The notes below the pieces were generated by a model. The model worked only from the letters and a program-made list of their open reading frames with translations, had not been told where the DNA came from and did not search any database. A DNA stretch of 46,084 bases from Syntrophaceae bacterium. Lineage in GTDB: Bacteria > Desulfobacterota > Syntrophia > Syntrophales > Smithellaceae. Both the position numbers and the translations under genes were made by a program. Below are positions 262 through 15,074 of the stretch, piece by piece. Position 1 is the first letter of the stretch. The number at the start of each line of letters is the position of its first letter. The stretch is from positions 1 through 46,084 of the forward strand of contig PLMQ01000037.1 of assembly GCA_003142535.1 (NCBI GenBank), written 5' to 3'.

Positions 262-2349
262 TTACCGGCATGAGGAAAAACAATCGTTTACTTTTCTATT
301 TCTTAGTTCAGCCAGCTTCCCTTTGTTCCAACTGGAAATTTTGCTGAAATATTTGGTGAGGCGGGCGATGCCTTCGACATCTGCTGAACCGCAATAAATG
401 CAATTTTCATCCAAACCCGGCGCGGTTTTGCCGCAGGCAAGACATGAGGTGAATTCGGGAGCAAAGTCAATCTGGCGATTTTCTGATTTATAAAATACTC
501 CCCGCACAAACTGACAGATGTCTTCTTTATCAGGAGTTGTGCCCCCCAATTGCAGATGTGTAATAACTTCCCCTTCGAGATACTTATGAAACTGCCCTTC
601 CCGAATTACTCTTTGCAGCGGCGCGATATCCGCAGCTACATTAAGATGTGTGGAGTTGGTATAATAAATGGCCCCCACGGCAATATCGCCTTTGACATAA
701 CGTCCCGCTATCGGAGAAAAATATTTCAAATCCAGCCGCGCGAAACGATAAGCTGTAGTTTCCGCCGGTGACTGTTCCAGCACAAACGTCAAGGCGGCTA
801 CTTTACCCAGGCGTTTAATCTCATCTCGCAAATATTCAACAACTTTCAAGCCGAAGTTAAGCGCCTCCGGCGATTCATGCAGTTCACGACCGAGGTGTAT
901 CTGAACAAGTTCATTGAGTCCCACCAGACCGATAATGTAAAATGACCTGTTCATTCTTAAATAAGGAAAGCCGTCATGATTCATCGCGAGCACTGAAAGC
1001 GGCCCTTGATCGGCATAAGACAAAAGCTTTTCCAAAAAATCTTTTTTCTGAATGCTCGTCCTTACTGCTGTTGTTGTAAATTCTTTAAGCAGGGCAAATA
1101 GTTTCTTCTCGTCACCGGCAGCTTTGTAAGCTATGCGCGGCAAATTTAAAGACACGCTTTGAATGGCTGCCTGCCGCATCAGCCAGGGCTTATCTAACTC
1201 CTCTTTATAACCGTTATCATCCCCGCCACCGGCTTTACAGCAGACAAATGAATCAGCATCTGCCCCGCGATCAAAAACAAAACAGGTATTGCCTTTGCAA
1301 GCGGCGACTTCGCCGGCCAGTTGTAATAATTCGTGAGCGCCTTTCGTTTTTAAAAATTTCTCACTTATATGCAGCAATGGGCGCGGCAAAATAAACGGTT
1401 TGCCTGTAGCATCGCCCTTTTTAAATACTTCCAATATCGCCCGGGCAAAACGTTGCACATCATGTGCATATTCTCTATAAGTTTTGCCGGTTGGAAGCCC
1501 TGCGGGACCAATGGCCGAGAGCCTTGCCCAGTGTTCCGGCACTTCACAGTACAGGTGGATATCCGTATAAAGAGCCTGCCCGCCTCGGGTGGCGGAAAGC
1601 TGCGAGAATTCATAAATCAGCATCTGGGCAAATTGCAAAACATCTTTATCAGTCATTTTGCTGAGGTAAGGGGCGAAAGAAATATTGAGAGCATCCCAAC
1701 TGATAGTACCGGTAAAATGCCCCTGCAAAACAGCGCTGAAGCGTACCATATGCGCCAGCAATACTTCCGCATGCCTGGCGGGTTTGGCCGAATTGATCGC
1801 CTGCGGCAGTTTCAGCCCATTGATTTTCAGATATTCCAGCGATTGGCAGCAACTATAAGGACGGTCAATATAACCTAAGCCGTGAATATGAATGTCGCCT
1901 GCAGTATGAGCTTCGCCGATATCCGGAGAGAAGACATCGTAAAGAGAAAATTCTTTTTTAATACCTTCGGCAAAAAGCATATTGGTTCCCTCTGGAGTAT
2001 GAGGGATATTGGCGTTTTCCTTATTTTGATGCAAAATCAACTGGCGCACATCATAGAGGGGGAATCCGAGCCGTCCGTGCAACCGTCTTTCTTTTTCCAG
2101 CCCTCTTTCAATCAGTTTGGCGTTTACCAGTTCGCGGATTAATGCGGTGGTGAGCACACTGTTGCTAACAGAAAATATTTGTTTTTCCACTTCTTTGGAA
2201 ATTTCTTCCGCCAACTGATAATCAATGCTCGCCTCGCGCACCAGGGCATCCACAATGCGCTGGCGGTTCCAGCGGGCAAGTTCCTCGCCGGAAGTGCGGA
2301 CGAATAAAGTCAAATCTGTAGTTTCGGAATTATCCATATAATCAGACAT
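262..2349 (-). CDS. nrdD: Anaerobic (class III) ribonucleoside-triphosphate reductase homologue with altered glycyl-radical site
   Basis: Class III enzymes reduce NTPs to dNTPs without oxygen, using a glycyl radical made by the activase NrdG. The protein has an N-terminal ATP-cone (about residues 5-90), the NrdD barrel with motifs such as HIHGLGYIDRPYSCCQSLEY and SLNLPRIAY, and a C-terminal CxxC...CxxC zinc site (CLACG and CIYCG). The glycyl-radical motif, normally R-[VI]-x-G-Y followed by a W/F-N-x-G-K segment, reads R-L-T-K-Y here, so the radical glycine is lysine (codon 352-354, about residue 666 of 695). I chose the ATG at 2349 because the cone begins just after it, GGAGG lies upstream, and it overlaps the stop of the upstream HD gene by 8 bases. 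The longer reading frame reaching 2439 has no support. The family assignment is firm; catalytic competence is doubtful. Confidence 0.9.
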   Translation of the reverse strand: MSDYMDNSETTDLTLFVRTSGEELARWNRQRIVDALVREASIDYQLAEEISKEVEKQIFSVSNSVLTTALIRELVNAKLIERGLEKERRLHGRLGFPLYDVRQLILHQNKENANIPHTPEGTNMLFAEGIKKEFSLYDVFSPDIGEAHTAGDIHIHGLGYIDRPYSCCQSLEYLKINGLKLPQAINSAKPARHAEVLLAHMVRFSAVLQGHFTGTISWDALNISFAPYLSKMTDKDVLQFAQMLIYEFSQLSATRGGQALYTDIHLYCEVPEHWARLSAIGPAGLPTGKTYREYAHDVQRFARAILEVFKKGDATGKPFILPRPLLHISEKFLKTKGAHELLQLAGEVAACKGNTCFVFDRGADADSFVCCKAGGGDDNGYKEELDKPWLMRQAAIQSVSLNLPRIAYKAAGDEKKLFALLKEFTTTAVRTSIQKKDFLEKLLSYADQGPLSVLAMNHDGFPYLRMNRSFYIIGLVGLNELVQIHLGRELHESPEALNFGLKVVEYLRDEIKRLGKVAALTFVLEQSPAETTAYRFARLDLKYFSPIAGRYVKGDIAVGAIYYTNSTHLNVAADIAPLQRVIREGQFHKYLEGEVITHLQLGGTTPDKEDICQFVRGVFYKSENRQIDFAPEFTSCLACGKTAPGLDENCIYCGSADVEGIARLTKYFSKISSWNKGKLAELRNRKVNDCFSSCR

Positions 2350-3760
2350 TGGTGGACGAAGCCGCCTCCAATGAACCGAGCGCTTTTTCCGCAGCAATGG
2401 CCAGCTCTTCATCATAACGGTGATCCAGCGCAAAGACACGGAAATGCATAATACGTGCTGGAATAAAGCGGTATATTTCGAGCACCGGCTCTAAAGAAGT
2501 AATCGCAGTGAGCGGATTGAAAATATTTATTCGTTTATTCTGCTGGGAGATGGGATTGAGCGGACGCGGATCCTGCGTTGCCAGATCCACCTTAAAGCTT
2601 ATACCCTGCAATTTTTTTGGCAGCCGCTGTTTAATTTTCCGCTCATAATCAGCGGCGCTGGTAAAACCCGCTCCGCGTTGTATCCGGTCGATGGATATTT
2701 CCGCGGTGAACGCCATTTTCCATTTAACTTCCCTGTCGTGCAGTTTTTTCCACTCCCGCGCCAGCTTGCGTTTCCGCGGATCTTTTTCGTTTTGCCAACT
2801 TTGCACCTGAGTAAATAAAAACCACTCGTCGCAGCGCAGATAATCATCTAATTTTTTCAGCGGATTTTGCGGGAAGATGATGTTGATTGTTTCGCGGAAT
2901 ATTTCCTGAAGATGCAGATCCAAAGCGCGGGTTGTCCTATGAAAATAAACATTGCTGTATAAATTCAGGCGGGCATTGAGAAAGCGGCCTAAAACCGAAA
3001 TACCCGACTGATGCAGCGTAATGCCTTCCGGAGTGAAAAAAGTGTAGTAGCGCAAGCGGGGAATATCCACCATGTCTAAGGAAAAACCGGTCATATAGGC
3101 ATCGCGCTGGACATAATCGAGATTGTCCACTGTGTAGACGCCGGAGAATAGCTGGCGTAAAAGCTCCAGCCAGCGCGGCTGCCGGATACTATCGGACCCC
3201 GGCATCTTGATTAAATAAGCAACGTGGCGTGGATCGATAATTTCGCCGCGGCCGAAATTACCCGAAGGGCTGCGCCGAATGCGGCTGATTATGGAACCAA
3301 GCTTTTTTACAATAATTTGCTGGCCGATAATTTCATGAGTTAAAGAATATTGGTTTAAATAATTATCATCAAAAAAATGGCCGTAAGGACCGTGCCCGAC
3401 ATCATGCAGCAGACCGGCCAGCCTTAATAGCTCCTCCACATAATTTACGGATGGCGCATCACGGCATACTTCCTTTAAGCTGGCATAAAGATGTTTGCCA
3501 AATTCTCCGGCAACATGCATCGTACCTAAAGAATGCTGAAAACGCGTGTGCTCCGCCGCCGGATAAACCCAGCGCGCACTTTGGAGCTGGAATATTCTTC
3601 TTAACCTTTGCAGCCAGGGCGAATCAATTATGTCCTTTTCGGTACTCTCCACAGCTCCATAGGCTTCCGGCACTGTAAAAGAAGCATATTGATGGATGGG
3701 ATCCGCAATTAGCGCCATACCCTTATATATTTGGGCATATTCTGAATCAGCCTTTTTCAT
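2342..3760 (-). CDS. HD-domain phosphohydrolase (dNTPase/YwfO type)
   Basis: About 472 residues. The HD metal site is visible as H in FQHSLGTMHVAG, HD in LLHDVGHGPYGH, and a later D in VDNLDYVQRDAY. This is the pattern of the COG1078 group related to dGTP triphosphohydrolases and SAMHD1, which cleave dNTPs to deoxynucleoside and triphosphate. The gene ends inside the start of the nrdD homologue (8-base overlap), so the two are probably translationally coupled. That places a likely dNTP-degrading enzyme with a dNTP-making homologue. The start is uncertain: the ATG at 3760 has only a weak ribosome site and an alternative ATG at 3718 follows AAGGGT very closely. Substrate is inferred from the family only. 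Confidence 0.82.
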   Translation of the reverse strand: MKKADSEYAQIYKGMALIADPIHQYASFTVPEAYGAVESTEKDIIDSPWLQRLRRIFQLQSARWVYPAAEHTRFQHSLGTMHVAGEFGKHLYASLKEVCRDAPSVNYVEELLRLAGLLHDVGHGPYGHFFDDNYLNQYSLTHEIIGQQIIVKKLGSIISRIRRSPSGNFGRGEIIDPRHVAYLIKMPGSDSIRQPRWLELLRQLFSGVYTVDNLDYVQRDAYMTGFSLDMVDIPRLRYYTFFTPEGITLHQSGISVLGRFLNARLNLYSNVYFHRTTRALDLHLQEIFRETINIIFPQNPLKKLDDYLRCDEWFLFTQVQSWQNEKDPRKRKLAREWKKLHDREVKWKMAFTAEISIDRIQRGAGFTSAADYERKIKQRLPKKLQGISFKVDLATQDPRPLNPISQQNKRINIFNPLTAITSLEPVLEIYRFIPARIMHFRVFALDHRYDEELAIAAEKALGSLEAASSTNV

Positions 3761-3916: not shown

Positions 3917-6900
3917 TTAATTTTTGCTCTTATCCAAGACTTCTCTTATTTTTTTCGAAATATCGGCAATGTTAAACGGCTTTTGAATGAAAGCACGGCA
4001 GCCTTTTTTCATAATCTCCGCGGCTTCGCCATCAATGCTGTACCCGCTGGAAAGAATGACATCAACCTGTGGATCAATTATCTTCAGGGCATCGAATGTT
4101 TCGCTACCGCTCATCCCGGGCATAATCATATCTAGGACGACTATATTAATTTCCCTGTGCTTCATCCGAAATACTTCAACTGCATCCGAACCTGTCTGGA
4201 CGCCGATAACGTTATAACCCAGTGCTTCCAATAATTCCTTGATTACATCAATTACCGAATCTTCATCATCAACTAGTAAAATGGTTTCATGACCTTTGAT
4301 CAGCGACAATGACGGCTTTTGATCAGCAATCAATTCTTTATCCGATGCCGGCAAATAAATGCTGAAAGTTGTCCCGTGTCCTTTTTCCGAATAAACATTA
4401 ATGGCACCATTGTGCCCCTTGATAATTCCATAGACTGTAGCCAATCCTAAACCTGTGCCCCGCCCCATTTCTTTAGTGGTAAAGAAAGGCTCGAAAATTC
4501 TTTCTTTTGTTGCCTCGTCCATCCCTACGCCTGTATCGGTTATTGATATTTTCACGTAATTATCCGCGGGTAATGAGTATTGTTTGGATTCATCTTCCGT
4601 CAGTGCTGCATTTTTAGTTTCTAAATACAAATCACCGCCGCCGGGCATCGCCTGCCAGGCATTGACATATAAATTAAGAAGAACCTGTTCAATTTGCCCA
4701 TGATCCACTTCAACAACCCAGAGATTTTTTTCTAAGAGCAGATGAATCATGATCTCTTTCTTCGTGCGGCCAAAAAGCGTTGTTGTTTTATCAACAACGT
4801 CATTTAAATTTGTCGGCTTAACTTCATAACGGCCGCGGCGGGCAAAACCTAAAAGCTGCTTGGTTAAATTTGCCCCGCTGGTGACCAGTTCTTCGATACT
4901 TTTTAATCTCCGGTGATGCGGATGCAAAGTTTCAGTATTTAAGAGCATCAAAGAAGCATAGCCTTGAATTCCCATCAGTAAATTATTAAAATCATGGGCA
5001 ATGCCGCCGGCAAGTGTTCCTATCGCTTCCATTTTCTGCGCCTGCTGCAGGCGTATTTCCAAATCTTTTTTTTCTTCTTCCACCCTTTTGCTTTCGGTCA
5101 TGTCCAGAATGAGCCCATCAAATACTATATCCCCGTTATCGAGTTTGCGCGGATAAGACAGGCAACGGTGCCATCTGGTAATATTATTGATTGTTGTCGG
5201 CCCCTCCCAGTTCAGATGGCCGGAAGATTCCACAGCCTCCGCAATACCAGCCAAGAGGCGCTTTTTATCTTCCTCCTGAAAAAAGCTGAAAACTTTTAAA
5301 GGATCTCTTTTCAGTCCTTCCGCGTCCAGCCCAATATCCTGGATGCTTTCACTAATATATTCAAGATTGGTGGAACCGTCCTTACGGACTATCCACTGAA
5401 AAACAATTCCCGGGACATTGGCTACCATATTTTTGAAACGTTCCCTGCTTTCCCTTAATTCATTTTCCATCTGTTTGCGTGCCGTGATATCGCGGATAAT
5501 CCCGCAAAAACCTGATAGATTGCCATGTTCATCGTGCATCAAGGAAACGGATAATTCTCCTGTTTTTTTGTAGCCGGCTTTTGTTGTCGCCGTTATTTCA
5601 ACTCCCCGCGCGGGCTGTCCTGTTGTGTAAACTTTACTAAATTCTAAAAATAGTTGATTGACAACTTCCGGGTCAGCAAGATTTTTATAATTTATTCCCA
5701 GCAGTTCATCATGCTTCCAGTCAAGTATTTTAAATGCAGCTTCATTTAAATCTATGATGTTGCCCTTCAAGTCGAGCCCAAAGTAACCGTCTGCAAGAGT
5801 TTCAATAATTGTGCGATATTTTTCCTCACTTTTCCGCAATTCGTTTTCCATTTGCTTACGTTTGCTGATGTCACGGATGATGCCTCTGAAACCTACAGGG
5901 TTACCATTGGAATCACGAATTAATGATATGGAAAGCTCCCCAATTATTTTAATGTCGGCTCTGTTTACGGCCGTAACTTCAATCCCGTGGGTAGATACTC
6001 CTGTTTTAAAAACATCATTAAATGCTTTAAAAATAATGTTAGAATTTTCCGCATCAGATATAATCCTATAATTGTTCCCGATTAATTCTTCTTTTGTTCT
6101 ACCTACTATATTTAACGCGGCATCATTAAAAATTAATACATTTCCCTTTAAATCAGTTTCGTAATAACCGTCTTCAATTGTTTCGATAATGGAACGATAC
6201 CGCACTTCGCTCTGGCGCAGGGCGGCTTCCTTTTCCTTAAATTCAGTTATATCTACTGCCAGCCCTCTTATTCCGACAGGTTTGCCATTATCAATTATTG
6301 GCGCGGCGGTGATATGAATAGGAAAATGGGAACCGTCCTTCCGCACGGCCGTTGATTCCACCGGATGTGTTACCGTTCCATTTATCATGCCAGCAACATT
6401 GTTCATAAGTGAATCAATTTCTTCCGGCGCGATAGTCTTTAAAATATCAAAACCAGCATCAATCTCTTCCTGCGTTAAACCGTAAGTTTTTAGAGCTTTC
6501 TTATTAAAGAAGGTAACCTTAAAATCCAGATCGCACTCAAAAGTGCTGCCGGGAAGAAGCTCGGCGAATTTCCGGAATTTTTCTTCACTAGCCTTCAGAG
6601 CTTCTTCCGTCTGCTTGCGGCCTGTAATATCCCGACAGAAAAGCAGAATGCCTCTTGGTTTATTTTCTTCGATAATTAGTGTGGAACTGATTTCAAAAAA
6701 TAACCGAGTTCCTTTTTTATTGATAAATTCTACTTCATAAGGAGAAACTGTCGTATCACCAGCACGGCGACGCGTCATTCTTTCAACCATCAGCGGTAAA
6801 TATTCTTTGGGAATAACATCCGCAACATTTATACCAATTGCTTCTTCTCTACTGTAACCGCTGATCTCACAGGCCGGGTTATTGATATAAAATACTTTTC

Positions 6901-7012
6901 CTTCCATGTCGCAGGCAAAAATGTATTCGTGAATACTGTCAGCCAATTCCCGGTAACGTGCTTCGCTCTTTTTTGTTTTTGTCAGCTCTTCTAAAAGCTC
7001 CGCTTTTGTCAT
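3917..7012 (-). CDS. Hybrid sensor histidine kinase with five PAS domains and a C-terminal receiver
   Basis: 1031 residues with no obvious membrane segment, so probably cytoplasmic. Five PAS/PAC repeats fill about residues 15-645; the PAC ends recur as [32 protein letters not shown] and LDMTESKR. The dimerisation/phosphoacceptor box [10 protein letters not shown] has its histidine at about residue 673. The ATPase domain shows the N box, DTGVGMD and [12 protein letters not shown]. The receiver at about 905-1025 has the acidic pair VDDED, the phospho-Asp in VVLDMIMPG (about 961) and K in QKPF. No response regulator gene is adjacent, so the phosphate target is unknown. PAS repeats 3 and 4 are very alike, suggesting internal duplication. 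The signal sensed cannot be read from the sequence. Confidence 0.93.
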
Positions 7013-8783: not shown

Positions 8784-9413
8784 TTAAATACTAATGAACG
8801 AATACGCAACAAAATTGCCGTCATGGCTCAAACTGACGTCCACCGGATATCTTTCCTCATTATAATAAATAATCGGCGGCTGAAGCTCTCCGTCATTTTT
8901 CACCCGTCTGATTTCCAAATGCTGGTAATTTAAATGAAAATATCCGGCCACTCTCCGGACAAGACAATCGCGGACAAATAATGATGGATCAACATTTTCC
9001 CGGGCTTCCGGTGGGGGTACAATATCAACATCCCATACTATTTTATCAAGTATCCGTAAATCATCCGTGCCGATACAATGCACATATTTTTCTGAAATAA
9101 AAAGGCGGGTAAAAATTCCGGCACTCGCCGAAATGATAACCTCGCCTTGTTCATAGATTCTACCGGTCTCACTTATTGTAACCTTCCACTGACTAGGCAG
9201 AAAAGCAGTATCTGCAGAAGCTTTCTTCATTACCTTATAAGCAGTTTCCTTACAGGCCCAAAGCGACCAAAGCACGGCAGCCGGATTTTTCGCACTGCGG
9301 ACAAATTCTATTTCAGCAGATGTGAGGATTTTCTTTAGAAATCGCAAATCCAGTGTTTTTCTCACATTCACCGGGTCTGTCAAATCCACAACATCGTTCC
9401 CTATGTGCGGCAA
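8784..9413 (-). CDS. 4'-phosphopantetheinyl transferase (holo-ACP synthase superfamily)
   Basis: 209 residues. It transfers phosphopantetheine from CoA to the serine of carrier proteins, most plausibly the ACP encoded three genes upstream. The magnesium-binding GNDVVDL motif is near the N-terminus and WACKETAYKV is the W-x-x-KE motif. The start codon is TTG at 9413, chosen because GGAGG lies 9 bases upstream and the first conserved motif begins 5 codons in. The gene begins inside the acyltransferase gene, overlapping it by 101 bases in another frame. It is the last gene of the fatty-acid-type cluster. Confidence 0.85.
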   Translation of the reverse strand: MPHIGNDVVDLTDPVNVRKTLDLRFLKKILTSAEIEFVRSAKNPAAVLWSLWACKETAYKVMKKASADTAFLPSQWKVTISETGRIYEQGEVIISASAGIFTRLFISEKYVHCIGTDDLRILDKIVWDVDIVPPPEARENVDPSLFVRDCLVRRVAGYFHLNYQHLEIRRVKNDGELQPPIIYYNEERYPVDVSLSHDGNFVAYSFISI

Positions 9414-10137
9414 AATATTTTTCCTCCATTTGCGCCAGCCGGTTAATTATTTGCGCGGCATATCCACGCTGTACCCGTAGCCCGCTATCACCTGCGGACG
9501 AAGGTGTAAAGACTTCCACCTGAACAGAAAATTTTTCGCCCCAGGCCGGAATAAGGCCATAACTCTTTTGTTTATCTCCGCGCAAATAAATACACATTAC
9601 TTTACAATCCTCCACATCCTGGACAAAACGTCCCACACCATAGGAAAAGTCTTCTTTATCCACCATGCCGGTGCGGGAACGACCACCTTCCGGAAATATC
9701 ATGACATTGTGGCCATGACGCATCAGAAAAATGCACTTATCCAGAGTTTTTTTTGTTTTTTCGCGGGGACCACCGCGGTCAATGGGAATGCATTTGCCCA
9801 GATAACATAAAACTGCCAAAATTATATTGCTCTGGAAATTACTTCTCTCCGGCAAGTTCCAAGGAAGTTTTTTATAATCTGTTATATGCGAAACCAGACT
9901 GAAAGTAGCATAACCCAGAATAAAAGAGTCAATCATTGTCAAATGATTGGCACAAATAATCCAAGGCCCCTTATGCCGGGAAAATTCTTCGGTACACTGA
10001 CGGCGAATATCTTTTAAATTCCGCACCCGATAAAATAATATCCGCACAATTAAAAAATATAATGGTGCAATAATTATAATCGCAATCCGCCCGAGAATAT
10101 CCTGTAATTGCAGAGATGCTTTGGATTTTCTATCCAT
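9313..10137 (-). CDS. PlsC-like 1-acyl-glycerol-3-phosphate acyltransferase
   Basis: 274 residues. The acyltransferase motifs are visible: NHLTMIDS (H-x4-D catalytic block) and FPEGGRSRTG (substrate-binding block). One hydrophobic segment near residues 10-35 (IAIIIIAPLYFLIVRILFY) probably anchors it to the inner membrane. In this cluster it may transfer the finished acyl chain from the dedicated ACP to an acceptor, which need not be lysophosphatidate. The ATG at 10137 follows AGGG and starts 5 bases after the ACP stop. The last ~33 residues overlap the next gene and look non-conserved, so a late frameshift that extended the protein is possible. Confidence 0.82.
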   Translation of the reverse strand: MDRKSKASLQLQDILGRIAIIIIAPLYFLIVRILFYRVRNLKDIRRQCTEEFSRHKGPWIICANHLTMIDSFILGYATFSLVSHITDYKKLPWNLPERSNFQSNIILAVLCYLGKCIPIDRGGPREKTKKTLDKCIFLMRHGHNVMIFPEGGRSRTGMVDKEDFSYGVGRFVQDVEDCKVMCIYLRGDKQKSYGLIPAWGEKFSVQVEVFTPSSAGDSGLRVQRGYAAQIINRLAQMEEKYFAAHRERCCGFDRPGECEKNTGFAISKENPHIC

Positions 10138-10141
10138 TTTC

Positions 10142-10390
10142 TTACCCTAGTTTCTGTTTGATTACCCTGACGGCATCGCCAATTGTCCGGATCTTGTCCG
10201 CCTCCTCGTCATCAATGCTGATCCCGAAAACATCTTCGCACTTGATGATAACATCGACCAGACGGGCGGAATTTACTTTCAAATCATTTAAAATGTGGGT
10301 ATCGAGTGTTGCTTTCTCCAGAAGTGCGACATCTTTTGTATACCCCTTTAAAATGTTAACCATCTCTTCAAAAATTTTCTTGTCATCCAT
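10142..10390 (-). CDS. Acyl carrier protein
   Basis: 82 residues, acidic, with the size and helical pattern of type II ACPs. The phosphopantetheine serine is in LKVNSARLVDV, at the place of the usual DSL motif but with N-S-A. It would carry the growing acyl chain between the synthases of this cluster. The ATG at 10390 is preceded by AAGGAG at 10 bases. The divergent attachment motif and the dedicated transferase downstream suggest it is separate from the housekeeping ACP. Confidence 0.9.
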   Translation of the reverse strand: MDDKKIFEEMVNILKGYTKDVALLEKATLDTHILNDLKVNSARLVDVIIKCEDVFGISIDDEEADKIRTIGDAVRVIKQKLG

Positions 10391-10421
10391 AATATTACGC
10401 TCCTTTATAAATTTAAAATTA

Positions 10422-11699
10422 TTATTTTTCCCATTTCTTAAATATTAAGCAGCTATTGACATCACCAAAACCAAATCCCGCCTTGGCAACAATCCTGAGC
10501 TGCGGTTTCTCGATACATGTTTGCGGGATGCTGTGGGCAAATTCCGCTATATCCGGATGAACATCCTCGCTGTTGATGGACGGGTGAATAAAACCTTTGT
10601 AAATTTGCAGCACGGTAGCCACGCATTCGATCGCCCCGGCAGCGCCCAGACAATGGCCAATCATGGATTTTGTAGAATTGATGTAAGGAAAATTCGCTGG
10701 ACCGCGCCCCAAAGCTTCCGCCCAATTCTTGACCTCATAGGGATCGGCAAATGTAGCCGTTAAATGACCGTTAATGGCGTCCACTTCCGCCGGATCAACT
10801 CCCGCATCGGCCACAGCAGCCCTGATGCATTTTTTAACTCCTTCAGCATTCGGAGCAGTCATGGACCCGCCCATCCGCTGACCGCCGCAATTTACATGGC
10901 CGCCGATTATTTCCGCATAAATTCTGGCACCGCGGGCCAACGCCGTTTCCAATTCTTCCAGCACAAGCATCGCTCCGCCGGAACCGGGAACAAAACCACA
11001 GGCGGAAGCACTCATCGGACGCGATCCGGCAGCGGGATTATCATTATACTTACGGCACATAACCCTCATAGCATCAAATCCACCCCAGATATAAGGAGTA
11101 GCTGCTTCCGAACCTCCGGCTACCATGCGCTTGGCCAGACCCATCCTGATTCTCCAGAGGGAATCGATCACCGCCTCATTACCGGTACTGCAAGCCGAAG
11201 AATTCGAGGTCACCTGATTTCCTGCAGCGATAAGGCCGGAAATGCGGCCGCTGGTGCCGCTATTCATAACCTGTTCCACTATTCTGCTGCCCAGACGTCG
11301 CACCCTGCCCTCATTAATCATGGGAACAACAGAATTGGCAATCGTATCCATCCCGCCGACTCCGGAACCGGCAATTACCCCGGTATCCCAATCTACGGTA
11401 TCATCTTCACTTTCCGGAAGGTTAAATCCGGCATCCTTCCAGGCATCAACCGCCGCTACCGATGCGTAGCCGATATTATCATTTATAGACAAAAGCTTTT
11501 CCCGGTCAAAGTAGCTTTTACGGACGGCCTCGAAATTTTCCGGCACTCCGGCGATCTGACAGGCAAACTTCAATTGCTCCAATTGCGGCAGAAAACGTAT
11601 GCCGGAACGGCCTTCCCTCAGCGCCTTTTCAAAATTATCAAGGCCATGCGCATTGGGGGCGGCCACACCCATTCCCGTAACAACAACTCTCGTTTTCAT
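10422..11699 (-). CDS. fabF: Beta-ketoacyl-ACP synthase II (KAS II/FabF type)
   Basis: 425 residues, close to the usual FabF length. It condenses acyl groups with malonyl-ACP to extend the chain by two carbons. The catalytic Cys is in NSSACSTGNEAV, and the two His are in NGHLTATFADPYE and IGHCLGAAGAIE, giving the Cys-His-His set of elongating synthases. Its ATG overlaps the dehydratase stop in the pattern ATGA, so translation is coupled. No separate chain-length-factor partner (a KS homologue lacking Cys) is present, which argues against an aromatic type II PKS. Confidence 0.93.
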   Translation of the reverse strand: MKTRVVVTGMGVAAPNAHGLDNFEKALREGRSGIRFLPQLEQLKFACQIAGVPENFEAVRKSYFDREKLLSINDNIGYASVAAVDAWKDAGFNLPESEDDTVDWDTGVIAGSGVGGMDTIANSVVPMINEGRVRRLGSRIVEQVMNSGTSGRISGLIAAGNQVTSNSSACSTGNEAVIDSLWRIRMGLAKRMVAGGSEAATPYIWGGFDAMRVMCRKYNDNPAAGSRPMSASACGFVPGSGGAMLVLEELETALARGARIYAEIIGGHVNCGGQRMGGSMTAPNAEGVKKCIRAAVADAGVDPAEVDAINGHLTATFADPYEVKNWAEALGRGPANFPYINSTKSMIGHCLGAAGAIECVATVLQIYKGFIHPSINSEDVHPDIAEFAHSIPQTCIEKPQLRIVAKAGFGFGDVNSCLIFKKWEK

Positions 11700-12166
11700 C
11701 TGGCCACTCCCATTCCGGCCAATCTCCCCGTACAGACCACTTCGCCGTTTTCTCTTTCCATAGTTAAATCCATTTTTATAGCCCCTTTACGAAAATAAAT
11801 TTTTCTGCCTTTTACAATCACCCTTTCGCCCGGCACCACAATCCCCTTAAATTCCACCTCATCCATGTGGGAAAATAAACTTAAAGGATATTCCATCTGA
11901 CTTGGCCTCACATTCCTCTGGCAGGCTAAAAGATACATACCGAAAGCAACAACCCCGATCTGGGCCATCGTTTCAATCAATATTACCCCCGGGGTAACAG
12001 GACGGCCGGGAAAATGGCCGCGATAAAAGAATTCGTCTTCGCGAAAGCGATAAGCACCGACTATCTGTTCCTCATCAATGCTGATAATTTCGTCAACAAA
12101 ACGAAATGGCTTTTGCTGCGGCACAAGCGCCAGCAACTCTTTTATTATACCAGCATCAACCTCCAT
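11696..12166 (-). CDS. fabZ: 3-hydroxyacyl-ACP dehydratase (FabZ/hot-dog type)
   Basis: About 156 residues. It removes water from 3-hydroxyacyl-ACP to give trans-2-enoyl-ACP. The active-site helix motif H-x3-G-x4-PG-x4-E is seen in RGHFPGRPVTPGVILIETMAQ-type sequence, with His and Glu as catalytic residues. I chose ATG 12166 because GGAGG lies 5 bases upstream; the ATG at 12178 has no such site. This start gives an 11-base overlap with fabG. Confidence 0.9.
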   Translation of the reverse strand: MEVDAGIIKELLALVPQQKPFRFVDEIISIDEEQIVGAYRFREDEFFYRGHFPGRPVTPGVILIETMAQIGVVAFGMYLLACQRNVRPSQMEYPLSLFSHMDEVEFKGIVVPGERVIVKGRKIYFRKGAIKMDLTMERENGEVVCTGRLAGMGVAR

Positions 12167-12887
12167 AAAGGCCTCCATTGACGTGAATTACGCTGCCTGT
12201 AATATAACTCCCCTTTTTCGCCAGGAAAGCAACCACTTCGGCAATTTCTTCCGGCTTGCCGATGCGCCCTAAAGTAATTTCCCCCATCACTCTATTTTTT
12301 ACTTCCGCAGACAATTCTTCCGTCATTTCCGTCTCAATAAATCCGGGAGCAATGGAATTTACCAGAATATTGCGCCCCCGCAGCTCCTGCGCCAGAGATT
12401 TGGTAAAAGCATCCAGCGCCGCTTTTTCCATCGTGTAGGGAATTTGTCCGGCATTACCCATATGCCCGACAACGCTCGATATGTTAATAATGCGACCGGA
12501 GGAACTGCGTAACATGAATTGCCGCAGTATTCTTTTGGTCAAATACCAGACACCTCGTGTCATCGCCCGCTGTTCATCGAATTGTTCCATTTTCATCGAA
12601 AGAATATCGGCATTGATAGACTGCCCGGCATTATTGACCAGAACATCCACCCTTCCGGCAACATTTTTAATTTGTGTAACCATCGCCTCGACATCATCAA
12701 TATTAGCCAAATCAGCTTTAATTAAAAATCCGTCTTTTATTTCGTCCAGCAGCTTTTGCGCCCCGTCGGCGCTTTTGCGGTAATGAATACCGACATGAAA
12801 TCCTTCCGCAGCCAATGCCCGGCAGCAAGCCGCTCCAATGCCTGTGGCGCCTCCTGTAACGATAGCAACCGGTTTCTCGATCATCAA
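12156..12887 (-). CDS. fabG: 3-oxoacyl-ACP reductase (SDR family)
   Basis: 243 residues, the standard FabG size. It reduces 3-oxoacyl-ACP with NADPH. Visible motifs are TGGATGIGAACC (nucleotide loop), NNAG, the catalytic Ser in NISSVVGHMG and Y-x3-K in PYTMEKAALDAF, and the PG motif after strand 6 (SIAPGFIETEM). It overlaps the preceding KAS III gene by 4 bases. Confidence 0.93.
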   Translation of the reverse strand: MMIEKPVAIVTGGATGIGAACCRALAAEGFHVGIHYRKSADGAQKLLDEIKDGFLIKADLANIDDVEAMVTQIKNVAGRVDVLVNNAGQSINADILSMKMEQFDEQRAMTRGVWYLTKRILRQFMLRSSSGRIINISSVVGHMGNAGQIPYTMEKAALDAFTKSLAQELRGRNILVNSIAPGFIETEMTEELSAEVKNRVMGEITLGRIGKPEEIAEVVAFLAKKGSYITGSVIHVNGGLYGG

Positions 12888-13873
12888 ACATCCTCCACTT
12901 TCAACATCATTGTTGCCCAGGAAAGGCCGGCGCCGACAATAGCCATCGCCACACGGTCACCTGCCTTGATTTCGTCCCAGTGCATACTCAACGCGCCGGG
13001 AGCGCTGCAACAACCTGTATTGCCAAACTGATCAACACTATACCAATGATTTTCCGGTAAAATCCCCCTTCTCTCACAGACGGTTTTGAGCATTCCTAAA
13101 TTGGCCTGATGCCCGATAAAGATAAAACGCTGCGCCTCGGCAGCAAAAGCGTCTTGCAGTGACTTGACGGCTTCCGTCGTCGTACGAATAGCGAAGCCCT
13201 GAACGGCATTACCATCCTGAAAAAAACGCCAGTCGTAGGTAATTCCAACTTTTTCCCAAGCCAAAGGCCGGGAATCAAAACTGCAATTAGTAAACTGAGC
13301 TCGAGCCGGAATACTTGTCGAAACTATAGCGGCAGAGCTGCCATCACCAAATAGCACAGCCATACTGCGATCGGAATAATTCACGCTCTTGGTCAAAGAT
13401 TCGGTATCTACAACCAGAACATACGGAGGAAGAGAATCCGGCTGCATTCGGGAAAGAAAATTGATTTTCATCCCAAAAGAGCTGCATGCCGAATTCATAT
13501 CGAAGCAAGGCACCTCAATACCCAGTTCAGCGGCAATTGCCGACGCTTCCGCCGGAGAGATATTATCCGGAGATGAACTTCCCGCAATCAGCATCCCGAT
13601 ATCTTCGGGCTTCAGCGAAGCGCGTTGCAGCGCCATGCGTGCAGCCGCAGCTCCCATTTGCGCATTCTTATATTGCCTGGCTTCAAAGGCTGCCAGCATG
13701 TTAACATTTTTTGTATTTTTTATGTAATCCAGCGACAATACAGTGCGGCGAGTTTTAATACCCACTCTCTCCAGAATCCATTCATTGCTGGTGCCGATAT
13801 CCAAATCTTCCAAAAATTGATTGGTAATAATGTTATCTGGGTTAAAATGTCCCACAGAATGAAGATAAAGCAT
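12884..13873 (-). CDS. 3-oxoacyl-ACP synthase III-like (FabH family)
   Basis: About 329 residues. FabH-type enzymes start chains by condensing an acyl-CoA with malonyl-ACP. The Cys-His-Asn triad is visible as DMNSACSSFG, FIGHQANLGM and FGNTGCCSAPGALS. I prefer ATG 13873, one base after the dehydrogenase stop and with GGAAGGG upstream; the longer frame would need a TTG start at 13894 overlapping that gene. Its position next to an acyl-CoA dehydrogenase suggests an unusual starter unit, but that is inference. Confidence 0.88.
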   Translation of the reverse strand: MLYLHSVGHFNPDNIITNQFLEDLDIGTSNEWILERVGIKTRRTVLSLDYIKNTKNVNMLAAFEARQYKNAQMGAAAARMALQRASLKPEDIGMLIAGSSSPDNISPAEASAIAAELGIEVPCFDMNSACSSFGMKINFLSRMQPDSLPPYVLVVDTESLTKSVNYSDRSMAVLFGDGSSAAIVSTSIPARAQFTNCSFDSRPLAWEKVGITYDWRFFQDGNAVQGFAIRTTTEAVKSLQDAFAAEAQRFIFIGHQANLGMLKTVCERRGILPENHWYSVDQFGNTGCCSAPGALSMHWDEIKAGDRVAMAIVGAGLSWATMMLKVEDV

Positions 13874-13874
13874 G

Positions 13875-15074
13875 CTAAACAATTTCCCTTCCAATAATCA
13901 TGTTTTGCACTTCCCGCACACCTTCATAAATATCAATGATGTGGGCGTCGCGGTTAAGTTTGGAAATTTCATACTCAGTTGTAAAGCCATATCCGCCGTG
14001 CAAATGGAGGCCTTCCGTTGTGCAATAAATTGCCGCTTCTGCGGCCGTATTTTTCGCCAGAGAAGCATAAATTCCGGCATCCTTTGCTTTTTCCCTGATT
14101 TTGCAGGCTGCCCGGAAGAGAGCAAGTTCAGCCAGTTCCACTCTTTTCCACATGGAGATTATTGTTTCTCTCGCGACAGGAAGATCGCAAATCCTCTGGC
14201 CAAATTGTTTACGTTCGCGGGTATAATCCAGAGTGACTGCGAGCGCCCTTTTCGCTAAACCCAGACCAATGGCTGCGACCATCGGCCGGGCATAATCCAA
14301 TACATCAACGATGTATTTAAAACCGAATCTTCTGTCCCCGATAATCTGATCCGGTTGAATTATAACGTCTTCAAATGTGACACTGGCCGTGTTGGAAAGA
14401 CGCTGCCCCAATTTATCCTCCGGTTTGCCGATCATTATTTTTCCGCCTGTCGGCACCTTTATATCTCTGGTGTTATTTCCGATATCAGGAATATCAGCCG
14501 CGGTTACATGTTCTACCGGGATAACAACGCAGGCCATAAAATTACTTGTGGGCTTTCCGACTTTACACAGAACAGTGTACTGTGAAGCATAAGAGGCATT
14601 GGTAATAAAGCACTTGGACCCATTTAAAACATAGGAACCGTCATCTTTCTTGCTGATAAAGGAGGTCATCATGGAGTTATCGGAACCGGCATTCGGTTCC
14701 GTCAGGCAGAAAGAAGCCAGAAGCGGTTTCTCAACAAAAGGCCTCAGAAATCTTTCTTTCTGTTGATCCGTACCATGCTGGGCAATCACCACATTGGCCA
14801 GATCATTACACATGGCCGAGGTGGATATGCCGGAATCTCCGTAGGAGAGCTCTTCGATAATCATTGCCGTGGATATTAAATCAATTTCATAGCCTTTGAC
14901 GGATTCCGGGATACATAAATTTATAATACCTATTTTCCATGCTTTGCCGATAATCTGCCAAGGAAATATGTGAGCCTTTTCCATTTCCAGAATGTGGGGC
15001 GTAATTTCATTTTTCACGAATTTACGTACCGTATCTACATACATCAATTGATTTTCATTCAGATTAAAATCCAT
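13875..15074 (-). CDS. Acyl-CoA dehydrogenase family protein
   Basis: 399 residues with the full fold: the FAD/substrate motif SFCLTEPNAGSD, the ITNASYA segment, and the C-terminal GGYGFTTEYEI and DIYEGVREVQN, whose Glu is the usual catalytic base. The family oxidises acyl thioesters to 2-enoyl thioesters using FAD and an electron-transfer partner. Within a synthesis operon that lacks an enoyl reductase it may work in the reducing direction, prepare a starter or extender unit, or add a double bond. No EtfAB genes are adjacent. About 280 bases separate it from fabD. Confidence 0.93.
   Translation of the reverse strand: MDFNLNENQLMYVDTVRKFVKNEITPHILEMEKAHIFPWQIIGKAWKIGIINLCIPESVKGYEIDLISTAMIIEELSYGDSGISTSAMCNDLANVVIAQHGTDQQKERFLRPFVEKPLLASFCLTEPNAGSDNSMMTSFISKKDDGSYVLNGSKCFITNASYASQYTVLCKVGKPTSNFMACVVIPVEHVTAADIPDIGNNTRDIKVPTGGKIMIGKPEDKLGQRLSNTASVTFEDVIIQPDQIIGDRRFGFKYIVDVLDYARPMVAAIGLGLAKRALAVTLDYTRERKQFGQRICDLPVARETIISMWKRVELAELALFRAACKIREKAKDAGIYASLAKNTAAEAAIYCTTEGLHLHGGYGFTTEYEISKLNRDAHIIDIYEGVREVQNMIIGREIV

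Follow-up and report, generated by a model that had tools for sequence, protein, structure and literature searches.

What does a homologue of class III ribonucleotide reductase (RNR) do for its host when lysine has taken the place of the radical glycine? This question is raised by one gene of the window, which here means the whole analysed stretch of 46,084 nucleotides from a Syntrophaceae bacterium (contig PLMQ01000037.1, assembly GCA_003142535.1). Its open reading frame is intact and full-length; the protein end reads GIARLTKYFSKISSWNKGKLAELRNR, with EGIARLTKYFSKISSWNKGKLAELRNR as C-terminus (Table 1). The encoded paralogue reaches 348.1 bits against the NCBIfam equivalog model for NrdD, TIGR02487 (cut-off 326.35), and is matched by Pfam NRDD (PF13597) over residues 111-686 with 400.6 bits. 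An AlphaFold2 model displays the NrdD fold (pLDDT 82.5, pTM 0.81) and superimposes on NrdD of P. copri (8p2s) with a Z-score of 35.8. By descent and predicted fold, the window protein is a homologue of class III RNR (NrdD). With the NrdD enzymes of T. maritima, T4 and P. copri it shares homology over the entire catalytic domain, the fold (Z 30-36), the Zn site, the HxH phosphate motif, the PAE helix and the WNxGK tail. In contrast to them, it has no radical glycine, no conserved cysteine and no adjacent NrdG, and the finger loop of its clade is variable or shortened.

Table 1 Features of the paralogue and the preceding gene in the window (positions of the forward strand; residue numbers are those of the paralogue)
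Feature	Position	Strand	Basis or remark
Gly-less NrdD paralogue (predicted RNR pseudoenzyme)	262..2349	-	695 aa, ATG at 2349; family profiles and predicted fold
Lys666, codon AAA, at the radical-glycine position (Gly621 of T. maritima, Gly580 of T4 NrdD)	352..354	-	Plus strand TTT; alignment
Zinc-site cysteines C636, C639, C650, C653	391..444	-	Invariant in subfamily
Cys370-Cys371, aligned with the finger-loop SCCR/MGCR motif	1237..1242	-	Sequence alignment
Cys167-Cys168, adjacent to but not homologous with the catalytic position	1846..1851	-	Alignment
Ser166, codon AGT, in place of the cysteine common to all known RNRs (Cys125 in T. maritima, Cys79 in T4)	1852..1854	-	Profile alignment
ATP-cone-like domain, N-terminal, residues 17-84	2098..2301	-	Pfam match under cut-off
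Overlap of HD gene end and paralogue start, 8 bp	2342..2349	-	Coordinates
HD-domain phosphohydrolase (dNTPase-like), directly upstream of the paralogue	2342..3760	-	Similarity to EF1143/SAMHD1

The lysine codon pointed out in the sequence-only reading was confirmed in this full-length NrdD homologue, and a search for a second, intact R-x-x-G-Y motif anywhere in the same open reading frame gave none. Alignment with relatives comprised 122 distinct subfamily sequences, 49 of which contain the glycine (25 outgroup and 24 Syntrophales sequences). In the remaining 73, i.e., the window protein and 72 others, all from Syntrophales, glycine is absent and replaced by Gln (33), Lys (29), Arg (8) or, once each, Leu, Asn and Pro. 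The codons at this position are equally diverse (AAA 27, CAG 23, CAA 10, CGG 4, others). Hence, the variety of multi-step codons among 73 distinct sequences excludes a single sequencing error, as had been argued from the window codon, and rules out a lone variant as well. In an IQ-TREE phylogeny built without the motif columns and with 43 thinned Gly-less rows, the latter form a single branch (SH-aLRT 99) nested in the Syntrophales part, and one change on this tree explains the distribution of glycine and its replacements. FastTree applied to all 122 sequences yielded the same clade of 73 Gly-less members. As this is one clade within Syntrophales, a single loss of the glycine accounts for all 73. 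In both trees, Arg is found on the most basal Gly-less branch, and Arg is reached from Gly by one base change while Lys and Gln require two, which renders a replacement by way of Arg plausible. The relatives originate from MAGs of Smithellaceae, Syntrophaceae and other Syntrophales, and by counted matches the paralogue is present in 132 of 155 Syntrophales genomes. Phages yielded distant NrdD proteins alone, with less than 60% identity.

The glycine is not the only loss: the cysteine shared by all known RNRs has disappeared as well. Profile alignment places Cys125 of T. maritima NrdD opposite Ser166, and the cysteine is found in none of the 73 Gly-less members, as compared with 41 of the 49 members with glycine (25/25 in the outgroup, 16/24 in Syntrophales). 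Its loss corresponds to four changes on the tree, on the Gly-less branch and in some lineages with glycine. The earlier statement that the other catalytic features, including a CC pair, are kept is thus wrong for the N-terminal cysteine: C167-C168 are merely the two residues following Ser166, so that their presence does not imply retention of the catalytic one. A second CC pair (residues 370-371) is present in the window protein, which counts against a dead enzyme, but it is not conserved across the Gly-less clade. The finger-loop segment (residues 361-388) comprises 28 residues in all 25 outgroup sequences, whereas it is shortened in 41 of the 73 Gly-less members and devoid of any cysteine in 20 of them. 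Since the aligned SCCR motif does not lie at the loop tip in the T. maritima crystal structure, arguments from the finger loop are weaker than the one from Ser166. Among positions invariant in active relatives, 25 of 55 were lost in active-site segments versus 40 of 342 elsewhere (p 2e-8), an enrichment which is descriptive only as the segments were chosen after the list had been seen. Six Syntrophales loci (L066-L068, L070, L104, L112), mostly linked to the HD-domain gene, have kept the glycine, while the conserved cysteine is already serine and the Trp of WNxGK is Leu; these are possibly dead enzymes still carrying the glycine.

Judged from these residues, the paralogue very probably forms no radical and reduces no ribonucleotides. 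That it might instead be an active enzyme with its radical on another residue is highly improbable. A survey from 2024 did report enzymes with Ala, Ser or Thr aminoacyl radicals, all class III RNRs in it having Gly (PMC11528403). Like the paralogue, these enzymes combine the fold of glycyl radical enzymes with absence of the canonical glycine, and the conserved loop around residue 666 would also fit such a reading. However, they are PFL-like, form radicals and keep the catalytic cysteine together with an adjacent activase, whereas in the Gly-less clade the site varies between K, Q, R, L, N and P, the conserved cysteine is lost in 73/73 members, finger-loop cysteines are lost in 20/73 and an activase is adjacent nowhere. 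Identification as an aminoacyl radical enzyme hence fails on residue type, cysteine and activase.

The genome to which the window belongs (2.93 Mb, 70 contigs) was searched for a second nrdD and nrdG, and a canonical NrdD with the motif RVVGYL was found beside NrdG2 on contig C13. No class I or II reductase was detected in this genome with the PF02867 profile, and no glycyl-radical protein with PF01228, for which the E. coli control was positive. Among the 132 Syntrophales genomes carrying the paralogue, 131 also possess a canonical NrdD or a PF02867 protein, the exception being one genome of 85% completeness (G030). A role of the paralogue as sole RNR was rejected on these grounds for the genome of the window and for nearly all others. 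The suggestion that a small glycyl-radical protein might complement the paralogue in trans, as GrcA/YfiD does for pyruvate formate-lyase, has next to no probability left. What could be taken in its favour is a stray copy of the 3' end of the paralogue elsewhere in the genome (L003 1439-1600; G000:C14:72965-73060), which spans 162 bp including 40-odd downstream bases and is 77% identical. Yet this copy encodes Lys at the glycine position and has no gene structure —it is duplication debris and not a gene—, a PF01228 protein is absent, and any glycine supplied in trans would leave Ser166 unrestored. Isolated fragments of the paralogue 3' end also occur in several related genomes (G002, G034, G043), and those read carry Lys.

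Despite the altered active site, large parts of the protein have been preserved. All four zinc cysteines are present in the window protein, as had been noticed before, and H154, H156, N402, R405, E530 and R535 are retained in 73/73 Gly-less members, as are W674 and N675; His114 of T. maritima NrdD, the counterpart of H156, binds substrate phosphates. Pairwise dN/dS amounts to 0.065-0.18 among Gly-less members; the active relatives give 0.04-0.12 and the HD gene 0.056-0.14. By these values, the Gly-less paralogue is under strong purifying selection and not decaying. A functionless gene in slow decay is accordingly very unlikely: the gene is lost or reduced to a remnant in several Smithellaceae (L136, L185, L186) and some members sit on long branches, but it is full-length across most genomes of the order, with low dN/dS and invariant Zn- and phosphate-site residues. 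Furthermore, 11 positions invariant in active relatives have switched to a different residue, now fixed in its turn and shared by at least 95% of the Gly-less members (by all 73 in the case of N265H); this favours a new role over decay. The view of the sequence-only reading that this is an inactive or regulatory paralogue is thereby strengthened, given also the canonical NrdD and NrdG2, the loss of the invariant cysteine and the lack of an adjacent NrdG.

From residue retention, continued binding of nucleotides is proposed with moderate confidence. Against it counts that Asp157, the counterpart of the conserved triphosphate-motif Asp, has given way to Gly in 55 of 73 Gly-less members, so that the substrate site has been altered as well. 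The ATP-cone, reported earlier as kept, is recognisable in the window protein, although its score of 23.1 bits stays below the Pfam cut-off of 25.8, which counts against a regulatory reading; the domain was matched at E < 0.001 in 23 of 34 aligned members.

Gene neighbourhoods offer a further clue. The overlap of 8 bp between the HD gene and the paralogue suggests one transcript with coupled translation. In 62 of 68 Gly-less loci, the gene immediately preceding the paralogue is an HD gene, at distances of -13 to about +150 bp and commonly with an overlap or no more than 35 bp in between; NrdG is adjacent in 0/64. Outside Syntrophales, relatives show the reverse, with NrdG following in 22/23 and HD preceding in 0/25 cases. 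These glycine-containing NrdD proteins of other Desulfobacterota (L069, L072, L141-L163) are direct relatives with 51-56% identity over the whole length, but differ in their intact RPYCSGQSLE and RITGYF motifs. By sequence comparison, the paralogue is shown to descend from such an ordinary class III NrdD with Gly, Cys and a downstream NrdG, as it still exists in other Desulfobacterota. Syntrophales loci with glycine are intermediate (HD 14/22, NrdG 0/21), and hence the NrdG neighbour was probably lost and HD linked before the glycine disappeared.

The HD protein itself resembles E. faecalis EF1143 (E 1e-22), and SAMHD1 was matched, too. Its residues H76, H119-D120, D212 and R73, which do not vary among 14 members, correspond to the metal site of the SAMHD1/EF1143 type and the preceding Arg. 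With similarity and metal-site residues of known HD dNTPases, the protein is predicted to be dNTPase-like. A defence system was considered as well and rejected, as PADLOC left the paralogue without a match and assigned the HD protein no more than a weak dGTPase one.

Pairing of the two genes is not obligate. One family (f12; G072-G075) keeps the paralogue, with Arg, in the absence of HD, including in a single-contig genome, which counts against the HD link; six genomes (G036, G037, G042, G044, G046, G145) have kept HD and lost the paralogue. In G145, HD is followed by a phosphoheptose-isomerase-like gene, named by eye, which follows the paralogue in G072, thus indicating an ancestral order HD-paralogue-isomerase. 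Remnants of the paralogue were seen behind intact HD genes: in L136 (G036:C77), an in-frame internal deletion has fused the first ~25 residues to the last ~50, and L185 (G042) and L186 (G044) retain N-terminal parts, amounting to repeated loss in one genus. On the other side of the HD gene, the window holds a hybrid sensor histidine kinase (3917-7012) that combines several PAS domains with a receiver domain; among the related loci inspected, L044 is the only one with a close counterpart at the same place. Positions 8784-15074 contain genes for a phosphopantetheinyl transferase, acyltransferase, ketoacyl synthase, FabA-like dehydratase and reductase, a set reminiscent of aryl-polyene or fatty-acid-like clusters and partly syntenic in L037, L043, L046 and L049.

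Taken together, the best explanation, held with slightly more confidence than doubt, is a retained pseudo-NrdD which binds nucleotides and regulates dNTP pools, its likeliest partner being the HD dNTPase-like enzyme encoded beside it. Sequence comparison shows that, in Syntrophales, the gene parted from its NrdG neighbour and moved behind the gene of the HD-domain phosphohydrolase, probably before the radical glycine disappeared in a single event, along with the conserved active-site cysteine. Another RNR was present, be it a PF02867-type enzyme, a second NrdD accompanied by NrdG2, or both. Purifying selection still holds the remainder of the protein, from the barrel and zinc tail to the ATP-cone-like region and the nucleotide-phosphate site. 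The pseudo-NrdD would bind nucleotides in the manner of NrdD and serve as allosteric nucleotide sensor or control dNTP levels, the former radical site being filled by the long polar Lys, Gln or Arg side chain of the old glycyl loop. The part concerning the partner, i.e., that the paralogue regulates how dNTPs are supplied or broken down and has its likeliest partner in the HD protein, is tentatively suggested by operon structure. Going one step further, both proteins might constitute a dNTP thermostat, in which the pseudo-NrdD senses nucleotides at its inherited RNR sites, with Lys, Gln or Arg of the one-time glycyl loop as ligand where the radical once sat, and toggles dNTP hydrolysis by the HD enzyme; this specific version is speculative and rather doubtful. 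An alternative that is unlikely but has to be taken seriously assumes a role unrelated to HD, either as inhibitor or regulator of the canonical NrdD/NrdG or as a new, non-radical barrel enzyme. It gains from family f12, from the residues newly fixed in the Gly-less clade and from the fact that most genomes encode a canonical NrdD and NrdG2, whereas the adjacency of HD in the great majority of loci, often with overlap, speaks for the dNTP-pool regulator paired with HD, and nothing positive points to a particular other partner.

Searches of the literature returned no paper on Gly-less NrdD, most subscription journals lying outside their coverage, and the clade appears undescribed so far. Likewise, nothing was found on NrdD in Syntrophus or ribonucleotide reductase in Syntrophus aciditrophicus, nor any HD dNTPase with an NrdD partner or operon of RNR and HD dNTPase. 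The closest parallel in terms of fate is offered by the R1 proteins of beta-herpesviruses (HCMV UL45, MCMV M45), homologues of the RNR large subunit which lost catalytic residues and adopted a new role (PMC5469499). Those, however, are viral and belong to class I, whereas the paralogue is bacterial, of class III and has been retained by vertical descent throughout an order.

For genome annotation, the paralogue represents a pitfall, as its score exceeds the NrdD equivalog threshold and pipelines would tally a second active RNR. The radical glycine had been taken as universal in class III RNRs, while in Syntrophales a version lacking both Gly and Cys is under selection across the order. Intermediate families, in which glycine is present, HD is linked and the cysteine is sometimes lost, provide a stepwise series. 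If regulation of the dNTP pool holds true, the paralogue would be a bacterial RNR pseudoenzyme and would show how a displaced essential enzyme can turn into a regulator.
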